Part shown: piece after piece, positions 1,292 through 60,329 of the stretch
How positions within the stretch are numbered: the stretch's first letter is position 1
Layout of the letters: every line of letters begins with the position of its first letter
Origin: Desmodesmus armatus
Taxonomy: Eukaryota; Chlorophyta; Chlorophyceae; Sphaeropleales; Scenedesmaceae
Direction: 5' to 3'
DNA: 64,000 nucleotides
Assembly (NCBI GenBank): GCA_007449985.2
Contig: VIIQ02000270.1
Coordinates: 55,260-119,259 of the forward strand
Program-made: the position numbers and the translations under genes
The notes under the pieces: generated by a model
Database searches by the model: none
Told to the model about the DNA's origin: nothing
The model's input: only the letters and a program-made list of their open reading frames with translations

Positions 1292-2537
1292 TCAGTCACG
1301 GCTGCGCTTGCTCTTGTGCTGGGGGCTGGGGCTGCGCTCGCGCCGCTCCTGCTCAAGCTTGGACTCCTCCGCTGCAGCAGGGACTGGCCGCTGGAGTGCT
1401 GCTGCTGCTGCTGCCTGCACATCATCCTGCCCAGCATGACCCGCAGCGAACCATGAGGAGGGCCGCTTGCGGCTCGGACCAGCTTGGTCACGCCCGGAAG
1501 GGCCCGAGGGGGCGGCATCAGATGCTGCAGACCCTGTGAAGGAGCTGTTGGTTGCTGTCGCAAGCACCTCTGCAGCTAAGGAAGGGGTTGCGGCCTTCGG
1601 CTGCACCGCTGAGCCGGGGCTCTGTGAGCCCTTGGGCAGCACAGCCACACCCGCCCTGGCTGCTGCGGCTGTGGCACCACCAGCTGCTGCAGATGAGGAA
1701 GGGCCTGCAGCATGTGGCTGCACTGATAGGCCGGTGCTGTTGAACAGCCCAGCTACTGCACACTCAGCAGGGGCAGCAGCGGCATAGTTGGGGCCCTGCT
1801 GCTGCCAGAAGGGGTTGTGCCACCCGTCCAGAGAGGCGGCGGCAGCAGCAGCGTCCTGACCAGCAGCAGCAGCAGCAGCAGCCAGGGGAGCCGCGAGGGG
1901 CTCCTGGATGCTGCCACTGCCGTGCCCAGTTGTTGGCTGCTGCTGCTGCTGTGCCTGTGCTGCAGCGGCCTCTGCCTGCTGCCGTGCAAACTCCTGCTTC
2001 TCCCGTGCGAAAGCCCGCTGCTCCTCTGCAAATGCCTCCCGCTGCCGTGCAAGCTCCTGCTGCTGCCAGTGAATGCCGTGAAACAGTGACTCCCGTGCAA
2101 ATGCCTCCCGCTGTTGTTGGAGAGATTTCTCCCCAGCAACCAGCTGCAGCTGCCGCCGGTCAACGTCTAGCACCCGATCATGTAACCGCTTCCTCCACCG
2201 AAGCGTTCCCTGTTGTTCAGTATGCAGCTGCTGCCGCAAGGCTTGCACCAGCTGCTGAGCAGCAGCCTGCTCCTGCTGCCTTTGCTGCTCCCACCGGCGC
2301 AGGCCCCGCTCCCAGGCATCCAGCTGCTGCTGCCGGTGGGCTTGCTCCCGAGCAACATCCTGCTGCTGCTGCTGCTGGTCCAGGCCCCGCTCCCAAGCAT
2401 CCAGTTGCTGCTGCCGTTGGTCAAGGGCTTGCTCCCGAGCAGCATTCCGCTGCTGCTGCTGGCCCACACCCCCCTCCCCAGCAGCATCCTGCTGCTGCTG
2501 CTGCTGCTGCTGGCCCACACCCCCCTCCCCAGCAGCA

Positions 2538-2576
<39 letters not shown>

Positions 2577-2795
2577 CCCACACCCCCCTCCCCAGCAGCA
2601 TCCTGCTGCTGCTGCTGCTGCTGCTGCTGGCCCACACCCCCCTCCCCAGCAGCATCCTGCTGCTGCTGCTGCTGCTGGCCCACACCCCCCTCCCCAGCAG
2701 CATCCTGCTGCTGCTGCTGCTGGCCCACACACCCCTCCCCAGCAGCATCCTGCTGCTGCTGCTGCTGCTGGCCCACACCCCCCTCCCCAGCAGCA

Positions 2796-2828
<33 letters not shown>

Positions 2829-2903
2829 CCCACACCCCCCTCCCCAGCAGCATCCTGCTGCTACTGCTGCTGCTGCTGGCCCACACCCCCCTCCCCAGCA
2901 GCA

Positions 2904-2936
<33 letters not shown>

Positions 2937-2960
2937 CCCACACCCCCCTCCCCAGCAGCA

Positions 2961-2999
<39 letters not shown>

Positions 3000-4143
3000 C
3001 CCACACCCCCCTCCCCAGCAGCATCCTGCTGCTGCTGCCGCAAGTCCTGGCCCTGCTGCATATCAGCCTGGTGCTGCTGCCAAAGGCTGCGGGATCGCTC
3101 CCAAGCATCCTTCTGGATGACTGCCGCCAGTGCATGGCTGGCAACAGAAAGGGCGTGCAGGTCACCCTCCTTGAACAGTATGTTGATTTCCGCATCCAGC
3201 GCAAACCCTGCTGCTAATGGGCTAGCAGCCATCGCTGCTTTGAACACCATGTAGAAGATATCTACGTCCGCTGCTGCCGGCTGACCCCCTGCCTCTGCCT
3301 CTCTGCCCAGCATGCGGAGGATCTGCTGCATGCCCTCTGCGGCCGCCTGGCCCCCTGCCGCTAGCCCTGGTCGCCCTCCCCAATGCCCTCTGCTGCTGCC
3401 TGCCCCGCTGCCCCTAGCCCCTGGTTGCCCTCCCCAATGCCCTCTGCCGCCGCCTGCCCCCCTGCCCCTGCCTCAAGCCCCTGGTCGCCCTCCCCAATGC
3501 TGTCGCTGTCGCTGTCACCCTCCCAACTGCTGTCGCTGTCACTCTCCCCATTGCTGTCGCTGTCACCTTCCCAATTGCTGTCGCTGTCACTGTCACTTCC
3601 CCAAGGGCTGTCGCTGCCGCTGTCACTCTCACTCTCCCGACTGCTGTCGCTGTCCCCATCACTGCTGCTGGCAGCATTCCCACCGCGGCACACTGCAAAC
3701 GCGGCTTTTGTCAGCGCTTCTTCTGTGAACTCTGCGATGCGTGGGTGTTTCAAGAAGGCTTTCACAACCTCTATCTGCTGGTACTTGGCTGCCATCATCA
3801 GGGCCGTGTCGCCAGCGCTGTCCTGCTGGGTGTGATCAGCACCCCGGCTGAGCAGCAGGGTTACGACCTGCACATTGCTGTCGGGTGGAGCGTGGTACAC
3901 AGCAACGTGCAGAGGGGTTTGGCCCCGCACGTCGCGAATGTTGGGGTCTGCGCCCCACTCACTGTCAAGGACTACCTTCAGCACATCCTTGCTGCCCCTG
4001 ATTGCTGCGGCGTGCAGCGGGGTGCTGCCGTCGTTGCTGCGGCGAGCATTAATGTTTGCCCCTTCGCACAGGAGGTACTGCACAATGTCCGGAGTGTGGT
4101 GCTGGCAGGCAATGTACAGTGCGCAGTCCAAATCCTGCTGCAT
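1292..4143 (-). pseudogene. Ankyrin-repeat / polyQ coiled-coil protein, copy 1 (two lesions)
   Basis: Reading starts at ATG 4143 (MQQDLD). The first ~150 residues are ankyrin repeats (GANINARRSNDGSTPLHAAA, GQTPLHVAV, GDTALMMAAKY). An acidic Ser/Asp repeat and a repeated IGEGxQG segment follow. A helical segment (FKAAMAASPLAAGFALDAE), about eleven polyQ-DAAGEGGVG units, a Gln/Arg coiled coil and a basic end (SPSPQHKSKRSRD) come next. The order and both ends match the copy at 8203-10101. Two breaks are visible. A missing G near 3361-3366 ends the first frame at a TAG, whereas the preceding parallel repeats read CAGGGGCTAG. A CAG-to-TAG change in polyQ lies at 2861-2863. No intron signal explains either. 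Ankyrin repeats bind protein partners; nothing shows the partner. A sequencing or assembly error in this repetitive DNA is the alternative to a true pseudogene. Confidence 0.75.
2446..3036 (-). repeat. polyQ-DAAGEGGVG coding minisatellite
   Basis: About eleven copies of a 27-bp segment coding DAAGEGGVG (one copy GCVG) are separated by CAG runs of 4-12 codons. On the plus strand it reads as CTG runs alternating with GGCCCACACCCCCCTCCCCA. Run length varies between units, as expected for slippage. Long open frames in all other frames here are by-products of the repeat. Confidence 0.9.
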
Positions 4144-19103: not shown

Positions 19104-21530
19104 GAACCAAGCCAATGACTGGTTCACGGCCAGGACTGTGTCCCGGGCTGGGGCAGCGGCAGCTGCAGAATGCCTGTCTGAGTACGCTCAAATGACCGAC
19201 GGCAGCTTCTACCTGCCCCTCTCTAGTGATGTGGGCGTCACTGCCACTCCTGGCGTGGCCAGCGTTGCGGAGTGCGTGCAGCTGTGTGATCAAGCCGAGT
19301 GTCAGTTGCTGACCTATGACTACAAGCTTCAGGAGTGCAGCGTCAGGGTGTCAGTAGCACCCGTGTACGAAGGGTGAGACCTGATCATCTTGCCAGCTAG
19401 TCAGGTCCTTGCGTTGCATTGTTCCACTCAGCTTTCGGGTATCAAGAGTGCTCAGCGGCTGTAGCTGCTGGTGAGGTGCAAACCACATGCTGCAGTACGT
19501 GACCGTGTGAGCAGCGCAGTATATGAAGCTCTGTTGCATTTCAATCAGAGGTGCCGGGCAACAGAGGGGGATGACTGACGATGGTTCACCTGCACTCCTG
19601 CTTGGATTCCCTAGGATGCCCTGGATAGCTTTCAAGGCATTGGCAGCTGGCTACACAGCTGCCAGCTCCCTCAAAAGCAGCATCAGCTCCCCTACGGCTG
19701 CTCAAAGCATTGCAAGTGGCTTTTACACTTTTTACCAGGTGAGCCGCCCAGGCAGTGCAGTGATATACGGGTATACCTACGTAGGCCGCTCACTGGGTGC
19801 AGCTGTATCTGTTACTGTGGGAATAACTGTATCCAGACGGTGTCAGCAGCATTGAATTCGAATCCAATGCTGTCAGGTGTGGATACCCCAACACAACAGT
19901 GCTTGTCTGCCACACTACAGCCTGAAGTACAGAACGGCTGCTCAGGGCGCATTGCTCTCATGCACACTGTTGCTGCATTGTCTGCAGGAGGAGAAAGCAC
20001 TCACTGTCGGCATCCAAGAAGCAGCCCCAGGCCGTGACCAGTTCAACTCGGTGCAGGATTGCATGAAGGCATGCGACGACGCTGGAGGCGGCTGCGTGGG
20101 TGTGTCCTTCCTGACAACTGTGCAGCAGGCACAGATCGGCACGACGTGCTCTTTTGTGAAAGCCAACGTGCAGCCGGGTGTCTTCAAGCGCAGTATGGTC
20201 CGCACTGCCCCACAGAGGCTGGCGTTGCGCCTTGCCTTCTTGTGCCCCAGTGGCTTTGTAGCAACCGATGCAGCATCCCCCTGCAAGCCGGTGGAAACGC
20301 CGCAGGCTTTGGTGCTGGTGCTCACTGCCGACGGGACCTGCAGCGCCCAGGCCACCGAAACAGTGAAGGCTGCTTTCACTGCGTTCTTCTCCAACCCACA
20401 GACTGCATTCGGTGAGCGTTTGGAGCTGCTGTCGGCAGGCGGGGTTTGTCAGCGAGAGACAGCAACGCGCGTTTCCCCACTCGAGAGACAGCAAAGCTGG
20501 GTGTATCCTTGCATGCGACGAACAAAAACATCGGCAGTCAAACATAAGCTCGGTTGGCTTGAAGTTACCACACCACGTCGCACCGAAAACGCCGGGCCGG
20601 CATCATCGAGCTATTGCTAACACCACATTACTGCTAGAGGGGCCAAGCCGCTCATCGCAGGCTTTAATAAGCCGCATGTGTGTCTTGCCTACAGGGATTT
20701 ACGCACCATCCCTGACTGTTACAGTGGACTGCATGAACTTGCCTCAGGGACAGGTGAGCACGTGCCCAAGAGCTTCAGACTTGGGGCCCAAGGGAGGAGA
20801 TCGTCTGCTGGCTGTTGGCGCAACCACACAGCGGCTCTGTGTGCATGTGCTTGTGTTGGCAGCAGCTGTCCACGTGCATCGCAACAAGCAGCACAACGCA
20901 TCTACCAAAATCCCGTAATTGACCTCCATGCTCTCCCAATTGATTGACCTCCATGCTGTGGTTACTGACGCTACAGTCAGGAGGCACGCACAAATGAACA
21001 GCATCAGACATGCATTGTGTTGCGTTTTGTATCGCACGGTGCGGCTTGTTGGGGTTTGTGTTGACGCCAATACAAATGGTGTGTCAATACTGGTCTATAG
21101 TTGAAACCCGTGGGTTGATGCACGCCTTTGTTGTATGCTCTGTTGTGTGCGCAGGTGGCAAGGCGACTGCTGCAAAGCGACAATGGTACCATGCTGTTCA
21201 CAACTGGGGTCACTTTCCGTGGCACTACAGAATCCTTGCCTTCCATAATAGAGACGGTGCAGGATGCTGGCAACGTCCAGGGCCTGGAAACATTGGAAGA
21301 AGTCAAGGTATGCGTGGACACATTGGAAGGCGGCAAGGCATGCCGCGTTGTGGCCGAGGTCAATCCATGCCAAGGACCGCCCTCAACACTCAGCAATGGC
21401 AACATCACATGTGCTGGCGACAGCGTCGGAATCGGCGAGACGTGCGATGTGCAGTGCAACTCGGGCTACACAGCATCCACACCCACCATCACCTGCACTG
21501 CGGGCACCTTCTCCTCTGCCACATGCGACG
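19104..21530 (+). CDS. Modular surface protein, PAN-like and sushi part (exons 12-16)
   Basis: Exons: 19104-19373, 19615-19738, 19988-20411, 20695-20753, 21155-21530; lengths and phases join without frame change. Exon 12 (CLSEYAQMTDGSFY ... VAECVQLCDQAECQLLTYDY ... CSV) and exon 14 (FNSVQDCMKACDDAGGGCVGVSF ... TTCSFVKAN) have the spaced cysteines and central hydrophobic strand of PAN/apple-type modules. These usually mediate carbohydrate or protein adhesion. Exon 14 continues with CPSGFVATDAASPC and a segment ALVLVLTADGTCSAQATETV. Exon 16 ends in a sushi/CCP module (CQGPPSTLSNGNITC ... CDVQCNSGYTASTPTITC ... ATC). The PAN call is by cysteine pattern; sushi is more certain. This is the same gene as 12483-18903. 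Confidence 0.7.
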
Positions 21531-21943: not shown

Positions 21944-23312
<1,369 letters not shown>

Positions 23313-34991: not shown

Positions 34992-37008
<2,017 letters not shown>

Positions 37009-49300: not shown

Positions 49301-50267
49301 ACCCCGTCTTCATAGCTACGGGTGTGCCATGTAAGTTAGCAGAGGGAGCGCAAGTACTCATGAATGCTCACTGTGTGTACTACACACATATCAGGGATGT
49401 ACATATGTCTGCATGTTTGCCCCTCCTCCTGTCCATACCAAGCACACTGCACATCGCACACACTGCACAACAATGCACACGCCGCACCACAATGCACAAC
49501 ATTTCACCCTTTCCACATGCCATTGTCATTGCCAACAGCTGCAGAATCGCTGCCCAGGGTCTAAACAATCCGCAACCTTGGACCTCAAAAGCTGAAGCCA
49601 CAACCTCTGCGCTCCACCGCAGCCCAAGTTCTGATGACAAGATCCCAAACCCCGTTCTGTGCACACTCATATATGGAAGCCAAACACCTTGTTGCAAAGG
49701 CCGGCCCGGTTCAAAAAATCTCCATGTAATGAGAGGGTGGCAATCAACACATGCATGTACATGTGCATGTGAAGGTGTAAGCCAGAAGCCCGCCTCGACA
49801 CCCACAGATGGAAGCCACAGCCACAGCCACAGCCATAGCGCTGCAAAGAAATGATGTTTGAGGCAGCTTTTGGGACGCCTGTGATGGCCCATCTGGCAGC
49901 GTGTTGCAGCGCAACCTACCCCACATGACGTGCTCACATGTCGACCTTGCACATGCAGCGCACATCCAGCCGTCAGCACAGCAACTGGCTGGCTGACTGG
50001 CTGAGAGTGTTGGGGGTGAGAGGGTTTAGGAACGGCGGATGGGCTGGCGCCTAAACCCCCTCCTGCTCCTCACACACTGACAAATGCACTCACCCATATG
50101 AAACGACCATGCTAAGAAGTTTCTAAAGTTTCAAGTCCATATGCAGCACATACACACCGCCGCAACAACTCACCCCCTTGCCAAAACATCCACACCAAGC
50201 TACAACACCGATGCACCCCCCTCCCCTCCACATTCCCCTAGTATATCATTTCAGCCCCCCTCCCTCC
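46388..50267. other. Intergenic region, no gene supported
   Basis: Short open frames exist, none convincing. It contains a perfect 15-bp stem-loop (47888-47926), a poly-C run (48431-48453) and, at its right end, the 3' flank of the cyclase gene. Long stretches near 48.9-50.1 kb are CA-rich with no recognisable coding content. Confidence 0.5.
47888..47926. repeat. Perfect 15-bp inverted repeat, 9-nt loop
   Basis: GTCTCTGCACAATAT and its reverse complement flank ACCACAGTG. It may be a hairpin of a small non-autonomous element or an RNA stem-loop; no context supports a choice. Confidence 0.75.
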
Positions 50268-50775
50268 CAGGGTACAAAGCCCTCCACCACAGCAGGCATA
50301 CACAGCATGGTCCTGTCCATGACCCCCACCCGCTGCAGCACACTGAGTGGGTGGGTCGGTGCAAACTAACCACCCCTCACAATCACAAGCACTCTCACAT
50401 ACAGCTTACACTCGTCCTGTAAGCCCAACCCCCTGCTGCCTAACTTTGGGCCGCCTCCTTCCCACGGCACAAAGCCCTCCACTGCAGCAGGCAGGTGCAG
50501 CGAGGTGCGGTCCATGACCCCCACCCACTGCAGAACGTCTGGTGGATGGTTGGGTGGGCATTGGTTGGGGTTGCAAACCCCACCCCTCACAACCACACAC
50601 ACGTGCAGACACCCCAAACTTCCATACTGAGGTGTGCTCTCCCCACACCCCCAGATCCTTGCCCACATTCCTTTAGTGTCTCAGTTTGGGCCCCCTCCCT
50701 CCCAAGGCACAAAGCCCTCCACTGCAGCAGGCAGGTGCAGCATGGTGCGGTCCATGACCCCCACCCGCTGCAGCA
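50268..50775 (-). repeat. Exon-edge echoes: cyclase C-terminal segment, three copies
   Basis: The gene copy at about 50690-50775 codes VLQRVGVMDRTMLHLPAA and GFVPWEGG. Partial copies follow downstream at 50446-50530 (VLQWVGVMDRTSLHLPAA) and 50268-50345. Spacing is about 190-250 bp. Confidence 0.85.
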
Positions 50776-53700
50776 CCCTCACCCCCTTGCCACTGGACAG
50801 AGACAGCGGTGCGTACTGCCTGCCTGCCAACACACTGGGGCCAAAGCTGACCATGGACACAGGGCTAGGATTCCCTTTGAACAGGAAGCTACCCAACCAG
50901 CAGCACTCCACTGCCACCTCTGCAGTAGCACCACCACCAGCAGCAGCAGCAGCAGCAGCAGCAGTGGATGGGGCAGAAGCTGTGGGGTCTGCCGAGGGGT
51001 CTCGTTGGTGTTGCTCTGGCTGTATGACAAGCACATGGCTGCTGCTGGGGGATTGCTGCTGCTGCTGGCTAGGGGTGCTGTCAGGCACTCTGAAGGCAGA
51101 GGCACCCCCCTCCTGGGGACCCCCTTGACTCTGTGCGGCATCAGGTGCCGCAACCTGCTGCTGCTGCTGCTCGGTGCTTGTGGGAGATCGAGACCCTCCT
51201 GCAGCAGCAGCAGCAGCTCTGCTGTGCTGCTGCAGCAGCGATGTCCAAGACCGGGGTGCTGCAGAGATGCTGAGGCCTCCATTGCTGCTGCTGCTGCTGC
51301 TCAACGGCCCCCCTGCAGTCACCATAGCGCTGCTGCTGCTGCTGCTGCTGGTGCCGAGAGCACCCCCAGTGACCCCCTCGACCTCGTGACCAGCAGTAGC
51401 AGTGCTGACGCTACTGCTGTTGACACTACTGCTGATGTGGGTGTGGTAGTCGAGGGTGTTAGCCCATGGGGGGGTGGTGTTGGTGATGCTTGCTGCTGCC
51501 TTGAATGTAGTGAGGATCTGTCGGGCTAGGTCTGCGTCTGTCACCAGCTGGCCCCCCTGTGCTGCCACTGCTGCGTAGCGGGCTGCCAGGTTGACAAAGG
51601 AACCGTGGTAGTCAGCCCTGCAAGGAAGGGGGGAGTGTGAGATGGCACAAGCAGTAAGTACGGGATGTGGTGGGGTGGTATGCAGGGCCCCTTGTGCTGC
51701 CACTGCTGCATACTGGGCTGCCAGGTTCATAAAGGAACCGTGGTAGTCAGCCTGTAAGAGGGGGGGGGGGGGCGGCGGGGGCGCGAGGCGGCAAGATGGC
51801 ACAAGCAGTATGTACGAGATGGGGTGGATGGAAGAGCGACAGGCAACGAGGTACGATGCAGGGCCCCCTGTGCTGCCACTGCTGCATAGCGAGCTGCCAA
51901 GTTGACAAAGGAGCCGTGACAGTCAGCCCTGAGGAGGGGGTAGCAGATGGAAATAGAAATGTGAGACGGTGTGTGTGGGTATGTGACAAAGAGCCCTTCC
52001 CCTGCGCCCATTGCTTCCATAGGCGCCCAGTGCTACCCGCAGGCACCCACTGTTTCCTGCCGGTCCCCCCCCCCCCCCCTTCACCCCCTACTCACCTCCC
52101 TAGGTGGTCAGGCACCTGATGAGTCATGAAGTCGGGTGGCCCCTCACTCAGTACCTGATTATAGCCTGAAGCCTCCTTTCCCACACCGATGCTCACCCCA
52201 AAACACAAATGCATGCCAAAGCTTGCCATCAGCCAACATTCCAAAATCTTCCACGCCCAATGACCCCCCCTTGAATCCCCCCCCCTTCACCTCCCCAGGT
52301 GGTCAGGCATGTTGATCTTGGGTGTGCCCTCACTCAGCGCTACCCTTACACAAAGGCGATACATCCCCTTCACCTCCCTTCCCACATTGGAGCCCGCCCC
52401 AAGTTGCACATGTACGCCACGGCTAGCCGCCCTTCAGCACCCCTGAATCTTCCACGCCCAAAGCCCCCCCCCCTGGACCCCCCCCCCCCCCCCCCCCCCC
52501 CCGCATCCCCCTCACCTCCCCAGGTGGTCAGGCATGATGATCTTGGGTGTTCCCTCACTGAGCCCCATCTTGAAGCGTGGCCCCCTGAACACCAGGCGGC
52601 CCCCCTGATCAAGCTGGACACCACAGCTGCACAGACGCAACACCTCCTGGGGATACGGCAGGTACCTGCGCACACAATAAGCATCACACACGCACGGTCA
52701 GAAAATGTGAGAGTGTTGGTGGGTTGCGTTTTGGGTTTAGGGGCCACAGCTGCACAGGCCCAACACCACCTGGAGGTAAGGCAGGTACCTAAGGCAACAG
52801 GTAACTGCTGCTGCGGGGCATTTCAAGCCAGCATGTACCCCCTCCTCCTCCCCCCCCCCCTCCACACACCCTCCTCCCCCCCCGTCCTCGCCCTCTCCCC
52901 CCGCCCCCACAAATACTCACAGTGCTGCCTCCTGTAGGGTGAGCCCCCAGCCAACTGCTGCTGCGGGCATGTGAATGCCAGCACTACTTTTCCCCCTCCC
53001 CATCCTCCACCCCCCCCCCCCCCACACACACACACAAACACACTCACAGTGCTGCCTCCTGCAGGGTGAGCCCCCAGCCGACTGCTGCTGCTGGCATGTG
53101 AATGCCAGCATGTACTTGAGGTCCCCCTGCTGTGCGCGCACCAGGTAGGACCCAGGGAACGACCGCAGCAGCTGCAGCATCAGGTGGTGCAGCATGCCGT
53201 GAACAGACCTGCGGGGCAGAGCCGGGGGTGGGGAGAAAAGGTTGCAGACACAGTGCAGGGTTGAAACATGACTCCGCAATACATACATTGACCAAAGTTT
53301 GGAGAGGGGCAGAGTTGTGTAGGCCCTCAACCCTGTACAAAACTAAGTGTGTGCCCCCTGCTGGCTACGTGGGTGCATGTACATGGCAGGGATGAAGGTA
53401 GCATAGTCCTTGACGCCGCACAGTGCGCCGTGTCTCTTGCCCCACTCCCTCACACCTCCCACACACCTGGCCAGTGCAAATAACCCCCCTCCTCCTTCCC
53501 GCCTTGCCCAAACCACAGCCCCCCCCCCCACCCCACCACCACATCCCCCCACTCCATCAATCCACACCACAAAACTGTCCAGAGCTGGGAAGTCCTTTCT
53601 CCCCTTCCCCCTCCCCGCACACCCCTCGTTTCTTCCCCTTTCACACACCTGGCCAGTGCTGGGAACCTCAGCAAATCCGCACTGCCCTCCACAGCAGCAA

Positions 53701-53919
53701 ACAGAATTGTCACGGGCGGGAACAGCGGCCGTGTTGGCCCCGCCAGCCTCGCCCGCTGACCCCCTGATGCCCTGCGCTCCCCCCCTGCCGCCATAAGCAC
53801 CTTCTGTGCCACATTCAGCTGCAGGGATGCTGCTCGAAGCATCAAAAGACTCTGTTTATTGCTGCTGCTGCTGCTGCTGGTGATGCCAGTAGTTGCTGTG
53901 GGGCTGGTCGGGGCTAGGA

Positions 53920-53950
<31 letters not shown>

Positions 53951-54655
53951 AGAGACATTGCTGCTCTCTCTCAGCAGGTGCTGCTGACCCCCATGTATGC
54001 TGCAGCTTTGGAGCCGCGCAAGGCTTGACCCCATCTGCTGCTGCTGCGGCTGTATGACCGCACTGCTGCCATCTCCCTGGGGTCCAGCCGCCGCCATCGC
54101 TGCCATTGCTGCCATTGCAGGGCCGGCATCTGTCTCGTTGCCGCTGCTGAGCCTGCGCTGTGTGTCAAGCAGCGACAGCAACGACGCTCCCACGCCACAC
54201 CCATCCCCCCCTCCCCCCTCTACCGACAACGCCCCTGCTGGCCCTTGCTGCAATGCACCAGCTGCCGCCGCTGCTGCTGCTGCTGCTGCTGCTGTGGGGG
54301 CTTGCAGGTCCCCTTCGGTGAGAGACGGCAAGCTGCCAAGCCCTGATCCAACCTCCTGAGTGAAGCTAGCCCCCCGCATCTGCCTCAGCTGCTGCAACAG
54401 AGGATACACGTCACTCCTGCTCCTGCCAGGTACCCGCCCAATGCCTGGGTTAGTCATCATCCCTGTGCCATCGTCCCCTGTAGCAGGGGCGGGACCACTG
54501 GTGTGGCCCCCTGCCCCCTGTGCTGCAAGGATACTGCTGGCGCTGTTGAGACCCGGGGCGGCAAAGTAAGGGGCGTCCAGGAGGTGCCAGTTGGGGGGGA
54601 GGTCCAGCCCCTGGCCAAACAGTGCTGCTCGACCCACCAGGGAGGGAGGGACAAC
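50681..54655 (-). CDS. Receptor cyclase, second catalytic domain (C2) and C-terminal tail
   Basis: Exons (minus): 54655-53649, 53208-53048, 52665-52516, 51617-50681. Exon 1 has a long Ser/Gln/Ala-rich linker, then C2 begins (PPVTILFAAVEGSADLLRFP). The usual metal-binding Asp of FxDIEG is Ala here. It continues SVHGMLHHLMLQLLRSFPGS, RAQQGDLKYMLAF, AVGWGLTLQEAAL, YLPYPQEVLRL, VFRGPRFKMGLSEGTPKIIM, PDHLGR, ADYHGSFVNLAARYAAVAAQ. The Asn-x3-Arg pair (NLAAR) and the Asp eight residues before that Asn (position set for ATP in adenylyl cyclases) are kept. A 1-nt frame break lies in exon 53208-53048, between MLAF and AVGWGL. A polyQ/Ser/Ala tail ends at TGA 50681. It belongs to one gene with 55116-63584. 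Confidence 0.8.
51523..51935 (-). repeat. Exon-edge echoes: start of the last cyclase exon, three copies
   Basis: The gene copy (51523-51620) begins after an AG acceptor with ADYHGSFVNLAARYAAVAAQ. Upstream in the intron are ADYHGSFMNLAAQYAAVAAQ (about 51680-51755) and ADCHGSFVNLAARYAAVAAQ (about 51857-51935), each with its own pyrimidine tract and acceptor. A G13 run lies between copies. Confidence 0.92.
52085..52570 (-). repeat. Exon-edge echoes: 3' end of the GTPKIIMPDHLGR exon, three copies
   Basis: The gene copy is at 52505-52570, with partial copies in the downstream intron at 52292-52345 and 52085-52150. Each holds the CACCTGGGGAGGTGAGG-like donor, and they are separated by long G-runs (coding strand). 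Confidence 0.85.
52618..52795 (-). repeat. Exon-edge echoes: start of the YLPYPQEVL exon, two copies
   Basis: 52618-52668 (gene copy) and 52742-52795 share AGGTACCTGCC, CCA/CCCCAGG-GGTGTTG and the GTGCAGCTGTGG block with the acceptor side. Confidence 0.75.
52797..53115 (-). repeat. Exon-edge echoes: end of the AVGWGLTLQEAAL exon, three copies
   Basis: The gene copy (53042-53115) and the echo at 52919-52988 both include the GTGAG donor and differ at three positions. All three changes are third-position and silent in the AAAVGWGLTLQEAAL frame. A shorter copy is at 52797-52845. Confidence 0.85.
53462..53668 (-). repeat. Exon-edge echo: donor of the FPALAR exon
   Basis: The donor region CTGGCCAG-GTGTGTG at 53640-53668 recurs at 53462-53487 in the downstream intron, also followed by G-rich sequence. 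Confidence 0.6.
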
Positions 54656-54888
54656 CTGAGACAGCAACAGGTAGGCATACATACACATGGATACATGAGG
54701 ACAGCGTCGCGTAGTGGTGCAAGTATCCATTTGTAACACCCCCCTCACTCATTTTATTGTGAATACCCCCCAAATACACAGACACACATCAACATATGTG
54801 CACAGTTTGCAGTACATGTAGTGCGCAGTACATATATACAAGCAGTGCTGCTGGGCCCACCAGGGAGGGAGGGACAACCTGGGGATGG
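54619..54888 (-). repeat. Exon-edge echo: start of the VVPPSLVGR exon
   Basis: The AG acceptor plus GTTGTCCCTCCCTCCCTGG at 54619-54660 recurs at 54842-54888 in the upstream intron, with the following AGCAGCACTG block. Confidence 0.8.
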
Positions 54889-55115
54889 CAGCAGGCATGC
54901 GTACGTACATGGATGGAAGTGGAGGGTACCGCTCAGTGGTGGAAGTATCCACTTGCAACACCCCAAAGCAGCCGCATACTGCAGCGTCAACGTGGACGCC
55001 ATGCATGACATGCATGGCGCCTGTTCAGCAGTCAGACTGCTGAAACAGGCGCCCTATCAGTACAAATTATGACTGTTACTGTTAATGACATAATGCAATT
55101 CAAATCCGGGCTCAC

Positions 55116-58100
55116 CTGGTAGAGGCGTAGGCTGGGTCGCACCAGTGCACTGATGCTGCAGTAGCCCAGCAGCTGGCTGCGTCTTTCATGTGACTGGCTG
55201 CTGCTGCTGTACCTGCAACACAGCACAGCATGAAACAGCACAGCACAGCACAGCACAGCAGGCGGCGGCACAACCAGGTAATTGTGTTGATGCAGTGAAG
55301 GCTTCAAGGTTCACTGATCATGCTGTTGGCTGTGCAGGCACCAATCTTCAACCGCACTTACCAGCAAATACTGTGCATGCATATCTGCCCTGTTGCCGTG
55401 TTGTCACAAGGATGGAGCCATGTTGCTATGAATGCTCACGAGCCTGACTTTTGCTGGCTGGCCGCGGGGATGAAACTTTGTCCTCTAGACCTGTACGACA
55501 CTGTACTTTACTGCGCTGTGTTGCCGTACCATACTATTGGCACACGCCCAGAGCAACCCCGCAGCAGCAGCAGCCACTCACCCATCAAAGCCACGGCCAG
55601 ACTTGTCTGCCCCCTTGTCCGCGGCGGGCACCACCCCCACGCCAAACAAGCTCGACGTCATGGCCTGCCAGCTGTGCGGCACAGTCATAGACGCAGAGCG
55701 GCCCACGAGCCCGTGATGCTCCTTGTGATGCCGCCCACCCGCCGATGTCGCCACCGCAAGACCCCCAAACGGACTCTTCCCAAAGCTGCTGCTGTTTGAC
55801 CTGCCTGCCGGCGGCCGCTGCTGTTGCTGCTGCTGCTGAGACACGCCACCCTGCTGCTGCTGTTGCGCGTGGGAGTTTCCTTGCAGCATCTTGTGGGGCT
55901 TGCGGTTCTGGTTTAGCCCCAGGGTATAGGGAGCCTCTTCATCGCAGTCTCCACAGGAGTTGTTGTCCTCTAGGCCGGTTTCGTCCTCGGGGTTTAGCAA
56001 GCTGAGGTCCCGTCCACTGGAGATCTGCTGCTGCAGGTACTGCTGGTACTGCGCAACCAGCTTCTCACCCAGCTCCTTCGTCCACCTGTTGACAGGACAA
56101 CCTGAATTGATCAACACTATATCCATACTAGGGTTTAGGGTTGAGGGTTTAGGGTTTTGAACCATGTGACATCTATAGCTACGACGCTTGAGAGCTCATG
56201 CCAGCTTTTTACTGATAGCAGGGATATGGGAATATGGCGGGAAAAGCATGGCAAATGGTGGGAAAGCAGCCTTGCAAGCAACAGCACAAGGGGAGTGTAG
56301 TGTATTGTAGATTGTTGGACAATGCGTTCAGGGCAGCAAGCATCTTTGGGCGGCGGCAGCAGGGCCCAGCACAGGAGGCACACGTCACATCACCATACCA
56401 TACACACAAGCAGTTGTAGTAAAGCGCGATACATAGCACTGCACTGCACTGTGCTGTTCTGTACCGCACCACAACATAACGTTACTGCCTTAACCGTACC
56501 ATCCAGCACTACAAGCACACTACTCACAGCTGTATGCAGGCTTGTCGTGGCTTTCCAGGGACGCCCTTCAGGCTGAAGGGTTGGTGTTGCTGATGGTCGG
56601 CCGCAGCTGCTTCCTCCTGCGCTGTGAGCACCTCATAGCAGCCCATGTCTAGGGCGATGGCAAGGTCTCCTGGAGATGAGGCCAGCTGGCTGCCGGGTAG
56701 CGGAGACATGGTGCTCACACCACTCCTGCAGACACCGGGCAGCAGCAAGCAAGGGTTCAGGGTTGGGGAATTGACATAAAGACAGCTTGTGGGATCTTGA
56801 GAGGGACAGGTGCTTGCTGTCCGCAATGGTGCTCACACCACTCGTGCAGACACATGACAGCGGCAGGGAAGAGGGGGACTCAGCAGGAGTGGCGCACAAC
56901 ACGGACAGTGTTTGATGGAGGAAGTGGAACGGAGGCAGCTGGCTGCCATCCGACATGGTGCTCACACCACTCCTGTGTATGGAGGGCAGCGGCAAGCAAA
57001 CGTCCATGCACAATAGTCCCCCCCCCCACTCCCTCATAACACATCAGCCTACCCACCTGAAGCCACCCCCCGGCAGACACCCCTCCCCACAGCAGCTGCT
57101 GCCGCCGCCAGCGCCTCCCTTGCCCAGCCCTGCCGTCGACTTGGTTGCCAGCAGTGCATCATAATCCATGCCGGCTGGCCCCACTGCCCCTAGCCGCCAC
57201 ATGGCCTCCTTGACTGCGGTGAAGGTGGCTGCATCCATCAGGACCTGGCCGCCGTGTGCAGCATTGGACACGTCTGCATAGTGACAGGAACACAGTGGAC
57301 ATGTGGAAGACTTGAAAACGGGGGAGATGATAGTGCAGGAGATGTGTGGCAGTGTGCAGCATTGGACACGTCTGCATGACGGCAGTAGAGAGAGATGCAT
57401 TGGGAGTGAGGGTGAGAGGGGCATGAGAGGAAGGAAAGAGAGAGGGTAGTGAGGAGGGGGAAGCAACTTGGTCACCGCGGGCACGTCTGTGTGATGACAG
57501 CAACACAGGACCAGGGCACATGCAGGGTTCCAAGAGTGTGAAGGGAGTGGCCCCCTTGAACTTGTCTTCTTCCGTGCCGGCTGCTGCTGCTGCTGCCGCC
57601 CTTTCACAACACGTGTTGTGAAAGGGCGGCAGCAGCAGCAGCAGCCGGCACGGAAGGACAAGATCAAGGGGGCCATACCACGTGTCCACAAGGGTAGGAG
57701 GTCAACATGGATGGTAAGTGGAGGGGCAGGTGGTGGTGGCTGCATCATGCCCAGCACATGTGAGGCTGAGTAGAATCTCTGCGCAGCAGCTGGATGCCAA
57801 GCTCACAAACCTAAAGGGCACTCCGCACTGCTGCTGCTGCGGCTGCGGTGCATGCTGTCGTCACAGTACAGCAACCCATTACTACCCAAGCACGAACCAT
57901 GCTCACTCCAGCATTGTCAACCCACCAGATTACCCCCCCCCCCCTCTCACAATACACGTTCGTGCATTGGCTGGATGCAATCCCTGTGTCTACACACTAG
58001 CACCTCAGCCATGTTTCCAGTCCTACCTTGTACCCTCCTGTACAGTGCAGAGCTCTTCAGCTCCTGCCCCCGCTCCACCTCCCCCGTGACCACCCCCATG

Positions 58101-59947
58101 CGCACACGCAACCCACTGAACAGCTTCCCCTGCTCCTGCCTAGGACTCAGCAGCTGCTGGAAAAGCCACAGGTTCCTCGGCTTCGACCCCTTCTCCCTTG
58201 ACCCCCTCTCCCTGATGCTGCTGCCTGACTGCATCCCAGGGGTCGAACCTCCCCATTGGCTGAGCACTGACATGCTGCTGGTGCTGGGGCTTAGCGCCCG
58301 GCCCCAGCCCTTGAAAACCCTGCTGCCCCACTCCTCTGATATAGCAGAGTTGTCCCGAAGAAAGGAAGCCGGGCTGCCCTGGTGTGTGTTAACGTCATTA
58401 ACACACAGCATGTCGCCCCCAGGGGTGCTGATGCTGCCATGGCGGCCGAGAATCCCACTCAAACTGCTGCCGTTGCTGTCTGCATGCTGCAGGGTGGTTG
58501 AGGGTATGGGTATCATCGCCGCCTGCTGCTGCTGCTGGTCGGTGCGGGGGCTACCGTTGTCGAGGCTGTGGCTTCGCCTATGCCCAACAGCTGCAATCCC
58601 GCCACCGTTGCCAACCGTAAATGAGCTACTCTTGCCACCCCGCAGCCAAGGAGGCAGCCCCTGCTGCTGCTGCTGCTGGCCGCCGGCGGCTGCAGCCGCC
58701 AGGCCCTGCACGCTGCTGCTGCTGCTGCTGGGCTGGGACCTCTCCGGCCCGGCGGCTGCAGCCGCCGCAGCCGCAGCCACCGCCGGGTATCCGCCGCCTC
58801 TGTCTCCGTGAGCAGCTGCTATCTGCCACGTGAATGACTCCTGACGGCTGCTGTGTGGCGTGTTGGCCTCTGTGCATGTGGCGAGTGCCGCTGCTGCTGC
58901 TGCTGCATCTTCAGGGGTGGCGCCTGCTGCTGCTGCCGGCTGGGTGGGTGGTGCTGTGCAGTCCAGGGTGGTGGTGGCCCCCTCCCAGTCATCGTAGTAG
59001 GTGACAGCGGGGGGCCAGCTCTGCTGCAGTAAGGCTTGCTGGACCTGTGGTGAGTCAGTGTGCACGCACACAGCAAAGGCAATCTTGGGGGGTATTCTGA
59101 CAATTGTTGCAGCACATCGGTACCCAGTGACCGCAGCTGTTGCAGGCAACCACAGTACAGGCAAACACCTGGCAATCCCTGCCTGCCGGATCACACAGTG
59201 CACACCATGCTGCTACATTGTCGCAGACCCCGCCCCACCTCTCCCCCCTCCCACCCACACACCCTGTCTACACAAATACACACCTCCCCCTCCCCCTCCC
59301 CCCCCCCCCCCCCCGGGCACACACATACCTGCAGTGTGAAGGCCACTGCATCCTCTCCCCCCCCCCCACCACCACCATCACCCTCCCTCCACCCCCTCCC
59401 TGCGCTCCCCCCCCCCACCTCTCTGCCCCCCCCCCCCCCCCCCTCGGCACACACATACCTGCAGTGTGAAGGCCACTGCATCCTCTGCCTCATGGAACAC
59501 CACAGAGAATGAGTCACCCTCCTGCTCAACCACCCAGCCCACGTTCTGGTACACAGCGTGCTTGATCACACTGTTGTGCAGCAGCAGAGCCTGCAGGCAG
59601 GCAGGCAGGCAGGCAGGAAGGGACAGCAGGCAACAGCACCAGGTCAGGTCAGCACACCCTGGAAGGCGGCAAGGCTGCTCGCGCCACCAAGCATTGTTCC
59701 TTTACCCTCCTTGACTCTCCGTACATCTCTACACTTTCACTAGCCCATGTAGCAACCATGCATGTCCTGTACAACACCCCCCCCCCCCCCCCCCTGAGTG
59801 GTCTGGTCCCCTCGCTTGAGGTGTGGAGTCTCAATGAAAATTGCCTGAGTATTCTGCATGTGTTCACAACATGTTTCAAAACCTTATTACGGTGCTTGCC
59901 ACGGTGGCAACCAAAGCGTACCTCCCCCCCCCCCCCCACCCCCCCCC

Positions 59948-59998
<51 letters not shown>

Positions 59999-60329
59999 AC
60001 CGTCCCCCTGCATGAGGTGAGTGCAGCCCTTGTGCAAATCTCCCCATGAATCCTGTGCTTTTCTTTACACTCCCCAGCCTCCATCTCCACCACATGTTTC
60101 AACTCCACATCACGGTGCTTGCCACGGTGACAACAAGAGCGCCCCCCCCCCCAAACACACACACCTGTGTGGTCTGATCTGCGTCCCCCTGCATGAGGTG
60201 AGTGAAGCCCTGTATGTCAGTCATCACCAGGCTCATACGACCCGTGCGGGGCTGGCCCAGGGCGCGCTTGCGCTGCTGGCGGATCAGCTCAGGCAGGCGA
60301 GACATCTTGCGCTGGAACACGTGGAACAC
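55116..60329 (-). CDS. Receptor cyclase, first catalytic domain (C1) and linker
   Basis: Exons (minus): 60329-60165, 59590-59459, 59044-58027, 57273-57057, 56725-56528, 56085-55582, 55212-55116. A membrane-proximal helix (VFHVFQRKMSRLPELIRQQ) leads into C1: RMSLVMTDIQGFTHLMQ with the first metal-binding Asp; VEQEGDSFSVVFHEAEDAVA with the second. Then QQALLQQSWPP and, after a low-complexity insert of roughly 300 residues (Ala, Gln, Ser, Gly-rich), LRVRMGVVTGEVE. It resumes as ALYRRVQDVSNAAHGGQVLM. The Asn of the NxxxR pair appears replaced while the Arg is kept. So C1 could supply metals and C2 the Asn-Arg pair in a composite site, as in metazoan transmembrane adenylyl cyclases (inference). 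All exon phases join. A polyQ-rich linker (LVAQYQQYLQQQISS, then a Gln run) connects to C2. Confidence 0.82.
56129..56158 (+). repeat. Interstitial telomere-like repeat
   Basis: TAGGGTTTAGGGTTGAGGGTT-type units lie in the intron just upstream (gene sense) of the exon starting at 56085. Confidence 0.7.
56700..56985 (-). repeat. Exon-edge echoes: start of the SGVSTMS exon, three copies
   Basis: The gene copy at 56700-56732 codes SGVSTMSPLPGSQLAS. Upstream copies at 56815-56850 (SGVSTIADSKHL) and 56951-56985 (SGVSTMSDGSQL) are also preceded by acceptor-like AG and pyrimidines. Confidence 0.85.
57250..57500 (-). repeat. Exon-edge echoes: start of the DVSNAAHGG exon, three copies
   Basis: TGCAGACGTGTCCAATGCTG at the gene acceptor (57250-57285) recurs at 57355-57385. 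A diverged copy (ACAGACGTGCCCGCGGTGAC) is at about 57472-57500. Confidence 0.8.
57548..57675. repeat. Near-perfect 128-bp palindrome, no loop
   Basis: The left arm 57548-57612 and right arm 57613-57675 are reverse complements except for a 2-nt indel and one mismatch. The centre is CACAACAC/GTGTTGTG. It would form a 63-65-bp hairpin or cruciform in a cyclase intron. Such a structure is unstable in cloning, so a template-switch or assembly artefact must be considered. Confidence 0.9.
59320..59484 (-). repeat. Exon-edge echo: 3' end of the DAVAFTLQ exon
   Basis: AGAGGATGCAGTGGCCTTCA...CAGGTATGTGTGTG occurs at the real donor (59447-59484) and again at 59320-59358 downstream. A G15-class run follows each copy. 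Confidence 0.9.
59860..60230 (-). repeat. Exon-edge echo: 3' end of the DIQGFTHLMQ exon plus intron
   Basis: The end of the real exon (CTCACCTCATGCAGGGGGACG at 60180-60204) recurs at 60001-60025. The intronic block GCACCGTGATG..GAAACATGT (60090-60133) recurs at 59867-59912. This is a tandem duplication of roughly 200 bp with a G-run and a GT/CA run. Confidence 0.88.
59924..59998. repeat. Poly-C tract joined to (CA)n
   Basis: C runs from 59924 to about 59965, broken once by A, then (CA)n to 59998. On the coding strand this is (GT)n then poly-G. Confidence 0.92.

Follow-up and report, generated by a model that had tools for sequence, protein, structure and literature searches.

Head-to-tail copies of exon borders in the introns of a nucleotide cyclase gene and other loci of Desmodesmus armatus

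The introns of a gene on the minus strand of Desmodesmus armatus contig VIIQ02000270.1, whose product is predicted from sequence to be a receptor-like protein with class III nucleotide cyclase segments, carry partial copies of their neighboring exon borders, and the same anatomy is found in other loci of this alga. The window analyzed here is the whole 64,000-nt stretch around this gene (positions 55,260 to 119,259 of the contig), taken from an assembly that comprises 831 contigs and totals 115.8 Mb. The copies lie head-to-tail, on the same strand and on the matching side of the exon, which bears out the serial local tandem duplication proposed in a sequence-only reading of the window; the lengthening of introns proposed there holds as well, as anatomy. 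We consider it probable that serial tandem duplication, patchy from gene to gene, lengthens introns in this genome, with rare recruitment of a copy. Certain genes would undergo repeated, short, head-to-tail tandem duplications whose copies stand mostly 100–300 nt apart. Where the duplicated unit straddles a border and the extra copy falls on the intron side, the mRNA would stay the same provided that splicing takes place at the site adjoining the exon body; such copies would be tolerated, would make the intron longer and would then decay neutrally.

Border copies in the cyclase gene

We placed thirteen exons of the cyclase gene manually, using GT and AG sites; exon 1 is open at its 5′ end. Copies had been claimed at 11 exon edges, and 10 of these loci were reproduced by alignment or by an edge test scored out of 40, in which the threshold for an echo is 18; the remaining locus, 53462–53668, scores 13. 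Two of the reproduced loci, 57250–57500 and 59860–60230, score 23/40 each, and the first in the list, rather than being an exon–intron border, covers the coding sequence's 3′ end, including the stop codon. By the edge test, 7 of 31 edges of the gene echo in their own intron, 0/31 in the reversed intron and 1/155 in introns of other loci. Full-unit alignments show the copies head-to-tail on the same strand, with homology that mostly runs through the splice site into the intron.

A self-comparison without off-diagonal matches would have spoken against the copies; instead, the self-scan of the window returned 49 local direct pairs and 0 inverted non-overlapping ones. Twenty-two of the direct pairs fall in the cyclase gene (10 of them C-run matches), 21 in three tandem arrays elsewhere (2129–3059, 22053–22993 and 35309–36928, with smallest offsets of 99, 117 and 90 nt) and 6 in other places. 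The inverted count excludes overlapping pairs and so misses a perfect palindrome in intron 5 (57569–57656; two 44-nt arms, no spacer), which folds as a long hairpin (z-score −21) and may represent a local duplication in inverted orientation or the precursor of a small RNA.

All features of the gene given here are on the minus strand. The last coding exon, exon 13 (50681–51617; placed by its open frame, AG acceptor and homologues), contains the stop codon, and the 3′ end of the coding sequence is present at 50663–50779, 50423–50539 (second copy, by alignment) and, downstream of the stop, 50228–50344 (84% identical to 50663–50779; self-scan and alignment). The acceptor border of the same exon, at 51545–51629, is copied in the upstream intron at 51680–51764 (edge test and alignment) and again at 51856–51940 (alignment). 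For hand-placed exon 12 (52516–52665), the aligned set is 52485–52534, 52260–52309 and 52065–52114, and the donor-border copies that include the GT span 52289–52340 (edge test and alignment) and 52094–52155 (second copy, alignment); its acceptor border (52621–52667) has a 47-nt copy with 87% identity at 52744–52790 (self-scan and alignment). Three copies lie within 52803–53110, beside exon 11 (53048–53208; hand-placed and compared with homologues), and alignment places a decayed third copy of the exon 11 donor border at 52790–52838.

Farther upstream in the gene, the acceptor border of hand-placed exon 10 (53649–54655) and the adjoining intron end, at 54616–54742, are copied at 54839–54964 with 78% identity (self-scan and alignment). 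The acceptor border of hand-placed exon 7 (56528–56725), at 56689–56752, has two aligned copies, one with AG changed to AC (56807–56870) and a second with AG kept (56936–56999). Exon 6 (57057–57273; hand-placed, edge test) has its acceptor-border copy upstream, within 57250–57500. The donor border of hand-placed exon 4 (59459–59590), at 59428–59489, recurs at 59298–59359 with 95% identity, complete with its GT and adjoining G run. Finally, the donor border of hand-placed exon 3 (60165–60329) and its adjoining intron are copied at 59861–60048, the aligned pair being 59865–59931 and 60088–60152; the copies at exons 4 and 3 were both found by self-scan, edge test and alignment.

The best protein matches of the cyclase are from Tetradesmus obliquus (46% identity), Scenedesmus sp. 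PABB004 (48%) and a EukProt protein (57%), each covering 13–14% of the query, and place the alga near the Sphaeropleales. The Apple and cyclase domain names are taken from the domains listed for homologues and from our own motif reading; in a Pfam scan, the translations of seven exons yielded one C-type lectin match below the cut-off and one weak DUF4805 match. A PF00211 search of the genome found one place besides the cyclase gene, and a tRNA search found none.

Recurrence in other loci and the link with G/C runs

The sequence-only reading had described the pattern for the cyclase gene; it is not peculiar to that gene. We sampled 18 stretches, ∼165 kb in all, one from every 41st contig and each starting at base 20001, and predicted their exons with a splice-aware Markov gene finder that was self-trained on these stretches and the window and seeded with cyclase exons 1–10. 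Its exons agree with the hand-placed ones except at exons 11 and 12, for which it took a copy, and at exons 1 and 5, whose upstream ends differ; it also adds doubtful 5′ exons. In this first sample, 20/460 edges echo in their own intron, 0/460 in the reversed intron and 1/2294 in other introns, and interior 40-mers echo in 6/361 cases for introns and 1/182 for exons. The echoing edges are concentrated in the cyclase gene and in sampled locus L009 (7/27), with 0/67 in the rest of the window and 6/335 in other loci.

Pooled over all loci, including those picked by motif as described below, 37/554 edges echo in their own intron, 0/554 in its reverse and 0/2764 in introns of other loci, so that the match between introns and their adjacent exon edges that was proposed for scanning is indeed found in the sampled loci. 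The matching side carries the signal: 37/554 compares with 4/417 on the wrong side of the exon (p = 3e-6) and 4/406 in the next intron. Median spacing of the 37 echoes is 192 nt, and 33 of them fall within 100–300 nt. Copies that carry border signals, as these do, could also come from dispersed mobile introns (introners) or further repeats, or from border fragments inserted by way of RNA. We find such an origin scarcely credible, given the absence of matches in introns of other loci and the position of the echoes beside their source rather than elsewhere in the gene; only 5/101 introns of dense loci, and 7/188 of sparse ones, match another locus at all, and dispersed repeats were rejected on that count. 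A separate tandem repeat occupies positions 807–3162 of L017 (471-nt offset, 99.7% identity over 1885 nt).

Locus L009 and its flank, L023, contain a homologue of the splicing helicase DHX16/PRP2, which provides evidence independent of the gene finder, based on protein matching. A tblastn search with the homologue P0060 (954 aa, 75% identical) gave 46 matches on the strand of the gene. Of the 832 residues covered, 376 fall in two or more matches; the repeat matches are partial copies near an exon, some with stops. Ends of matches to neighboring exons overlap, and the matches were therefore trimmed by five residues per end, which left 214 of 705 residues matched at least twice. On the other strand, the same search gave one match and 0 residues matched twice. 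With a third homologue, P0068, wrong-strand matches number 33 at ≥22 bits, 4 at ≥28 and 0 at ≥35; therefore only the higher cut-offs are informative for that protein. A 942-nt stretch is common to L009 (7525–9307) and L010 with 89% identity, and probably represents a dispersed element in an intron of the helicase.

Duplication-prone loci are also rich in homopolymer runs of G and C. A block was counted as run-dense if G or C runs at least 7 nt long numbered 20 or more per 10 kb; four blocks qualified, namely, 50–60 kb of the window, L009, L015 and L016. Edges echo in 17/93 cases in these blocks and in 3/367 in the others (p = 3e-10), and across the 23 blocks with at least five edges the rank correlation between run density and echoes is 0.44 (p = 0.036). 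This split was drawn after the data had been seen, and a forward test was therefore made on ten loci taken from the 67 places in the genome that match GTGAGTGGGGGGGGGG (a donor beside ten Gs), with the gene finder unchanged. In these loci, 12/60 edges echo, with 0 in reversed introns and 0/300 in other introns; five of the ten carry echoes and one has no testable edge. Flanks of dense loci show 5/34 echoing edges, and in a logistic model both intron length and run density matter.

The link between runs and echoes is thus supported at the level of the locus, including prospectively, and this part of the earlier claim of G-tract instability stands. Priming at the tract is not supported: 5/25 duplication junctions lie within 10 nt of a G/C run, with 6.3 expected. 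This result and locus L029, which has three echoes despite few runs, weigh against a simple causal role of runs. A shared instability may lie behind both runs and duplications, and the duplications themselves may originate by break repair or replication slippage. In 240 introns, G runs lie within 80 nt of donors in 30 cases and of acceptors in 3, and C runs near acceptors in 22 and donors in 7, and exons in the sampled loci tend to be flanked in the order C-run, exon, G-run on either strand; this placement is compatible with splicing signals.

Decay of the copies and a possible preference for borders

Mismatches between exon and copy number 62/602, 48/603 and 106/597 at the three codon positions (about 1:1:2). 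This is the ratio expected where the exon can vary chiefly at third positions and the copy at any position. Exon-side identity in the 37 echoes stays at 0.78–0.83 through the four 10-nt bins nearest the border and has dropped to 0.47 at 70–80 nt, while intron-side identity is 0.49–0.65, compared with 0.42–0.56 at random intron positions. Three of the 37 echoes score 40/40, and the process is therefore recent as well as old.

The sequence-only reading had also suggested that the copies offer decoy splice sites. Selection for spare splice sites, or for border exons used in a mutually exclusive way, would account for the 25 of 37 copies that keep the splice dinucleotide (within one base) and for the fact that one copy gives the best-aligning open cyclase model among those scored. 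Divergence alone, however, would leave 29.4 copies with the dinucleotide, so that selection on these sites was rejected and the decoy function is unsupported. The 36 indels between exons and copies include none that is a multiple of 3 (the scoring favors short gaps), and the distribution of mismatches over codon positions agrees with an exon under constraint next to a copy that is free to change. We therefore regard a function under selection as improbable; the copies look like neutral, decaying fossils. The gene finder itself called some copies exons.

Are exon borders special targets? For this comparison, the dense set comprised the window beyond 50 kb, L009, L015, L016, L023 and L024 and nine motif-picked loci whatever their run density. 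Within it, 18.1% of 40-mer tiles echo at the exon edge, 0.9% at 60 nt into the exon and ∼5% in the adjoining intron, and edge and interior duplication events stand at 53:23, compared with 4:25 in sparse loci (p = 2e-7). Together with the placement of G runs by donors and C runs by acceptors, these figures could point to duplication or retention anchored at borders, through the runs or through co-transcriptional structure. Deep-intron tiles, however, echo at 17.3%, and the junctions are not at runs. Moreover, border copies would stay recognizable longer than intron-only duplications because selection holds the exon partner, and much of the preference can follow from this slower visible decay. 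A rough correction for age, made because interior pairs decay on both sides, compares 28 edge events with a score of at least 30 to 23 interior events with a score of at least 20, the edge share being 0.55. Uniform starts predict 0.49 with exon parts up to 150 nt, from which 0.55 is no different, and 0.29 with exon parts up to 75 nt, which 0.55 exceeds. Strictly border-anchored copying is weakened by this correction, and we consider a border-targeted process unlikely, although some preference of duplication for borders is possible.

Several observations weigh against gene-patchy tandem duplication followed by neutral decay. Exons in the edge tests are sequence-based predictions of our own gene finder. 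The inverted control is not empty, with 7 events against 76 direct ones in dense loci and 6 against 32 in sparse loci, and the edge events in sparse loci are therefore near background. In these run-poor loci, interior duplications also exceed edge duplications by 25 to 4, the opposite of what slower decay beside an exon leads one to expect. For the ten motif-picked loci, the presence of a run 80 nt or less from an edge was no guide to whether that edge echoes (6/12 echoing edges and 22/48 non-echoing). If substitutions were the only source of decay, intron-side homology beside the copies should be stronger than it is. Exon parts are shorter than uniform breakpoints predict (Kolmogorov–Smirnov p = 0.0003, n = 11), for which the simple neutral model has no explanation. 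Exon parts were extended without gaps, so that each extension ends at an indel and comes out shorter; perhaps longer copies also act as pseudo-exons.

A candidate recruited copy and known systems

At exon 11, the reading frame departs from the conserved cyclase frame after LAFT: where three homologues have eight residues, the gene has 23 nt, one base short. Exon 11 joined straight to exon 12 gives five stops. A piece of the second copy of its donor border, 52921–52960, may have been recruited as a 40-nt coding exon (candidate exon 11b; gene finder, frame and homologue alignment), behind a candidate new intron of 87 nt, GTGAGT...CCGCAG, between copies 1 and 2 (52961–53047; gene finder and frame). 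With exon 11b behind this GT–AG intron, the coding sequence is open over 5439 nt, with 0 internal stops, and retains the conserved WGLTLQEAAL. The gene finder picks the same 40-nt exon, but with the acceptor of the next exon at 52626. Copy 2 is not the only way to open the frame: 82 single-intron models are open. The best of these, in which the copy 2 donor is spliced, aligns to P0002 with a score of 369 (next, 346), compared with 389 over the same stretch for the two-intron model that includes exon 11b. An enumeration of two-intron models at a site cut-off of 2 found none, but the donors concerned score 1.6 and were thus excluded from it. Of the earlier claim that the duplications create introns, this one candidate stands; the remaining echoes mostly lengthen existing introns.

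A sequencing error or a real frameshift is a possible alternative at exon 11. Indeed, G/C runs are hard to sequence, and the missing base could be taken as a sign that assembly artefact or homopolymer error underlies the copies in general. Copies 1 and 2, however, have the same short 23-nt state. Duplication in the assembly is unlikely because the cyclase copies are ∼70–95% identical and not identical; they differ by ∼5–30%, and their spacers have diverged. We thus consider an artefact highly improbable as the source of the pattern.

The literature offers several systems for comparison. In the potato RdRp gene, an intron was gained by a tandem duplication crossing an intron–exon boundary (Ma et al. 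2016, PMC4974935). The alga resembles this case in that the head-to-tail duplication spans the border and carries the splice signals along, and duplicated units that cross an exon–intron border are found both in the cyclase gene and in the sampled loci. It differs in that potato shows one recent event with a transcript-supported new intron, whereas the alga has many, mostly decayed copies in several loci that mostly lengthen an existing intron. The tandem genomic duplication model of intron gain (Rogers 1989 and Hellsten 2011, as summarized in PMC3443670 and PMC4974935) likewise reshapes introns by local tandem duplication and leaves the protein unchanged. The alga has head-to-tail duplications in genes and one candidate 87-nt intron, so that its introns might themselves be products of a duplicated exonic AGGT segment. 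That model, however, needs the AGGT segment and a spacing equal to the intron length, a footprint absent in 36/37 echoes, where the spacing differs; the near-agreeing echo, L023:5385–5522 (141 vs 138), has a doubtful upstream exon. The footprint was rejected, and we give this origin very little probability.

Small tandem duplications also arise in mammalian cells by fill-in at breaks with 3′ overhangs, through CST and Pol alpha-primase (PMC8355091). The direct duplication of short segments and the lack of any need for homology are alike. The mammalian work, however, speaks of short (<100 bp) insertions, whereas spacing in the alga is mostly 100–300 nt, and the algal duplications are known from their sequence. 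Introners, which proliferate as introns in eukaryotes (PMC9860276), insert their own copies in many genes, whereas the copies described here are local to their source. Our literature search gave no description of gene-wide exon-border copies in introns among the matches listed. We file the phenomenon as a variant of local tandem duplication.

The lengthening of introns and the origin of new ones are an old question with few traceable intermediates. In certain genes of this alga, among them that of a conserved splicing helicase, roughly one border in five has fossil copies, which would make the rate, size spectrum, selective filter and recruitment of such duplications directly measurable; run density makes echo-bearing genes easy to find, and border copies mislead gene prediction. 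Occasional recruitment of a copy would be illustrated by the 40-nt piece of copy 2, which can serve as a cyclase coding exon. Tentatively, and with considerable doubt as to the whole, run-rich genes may be hot spots of intron growth, with introns gaining length as their own exon borders are copied serially, and exon 11 may be an intron birth in progress, in which copy 2 would be spliced as a 40-nt exon behind the new 87-nt intron, its 40 nt compensating for the 1-nt shortfall and keeping the frame.

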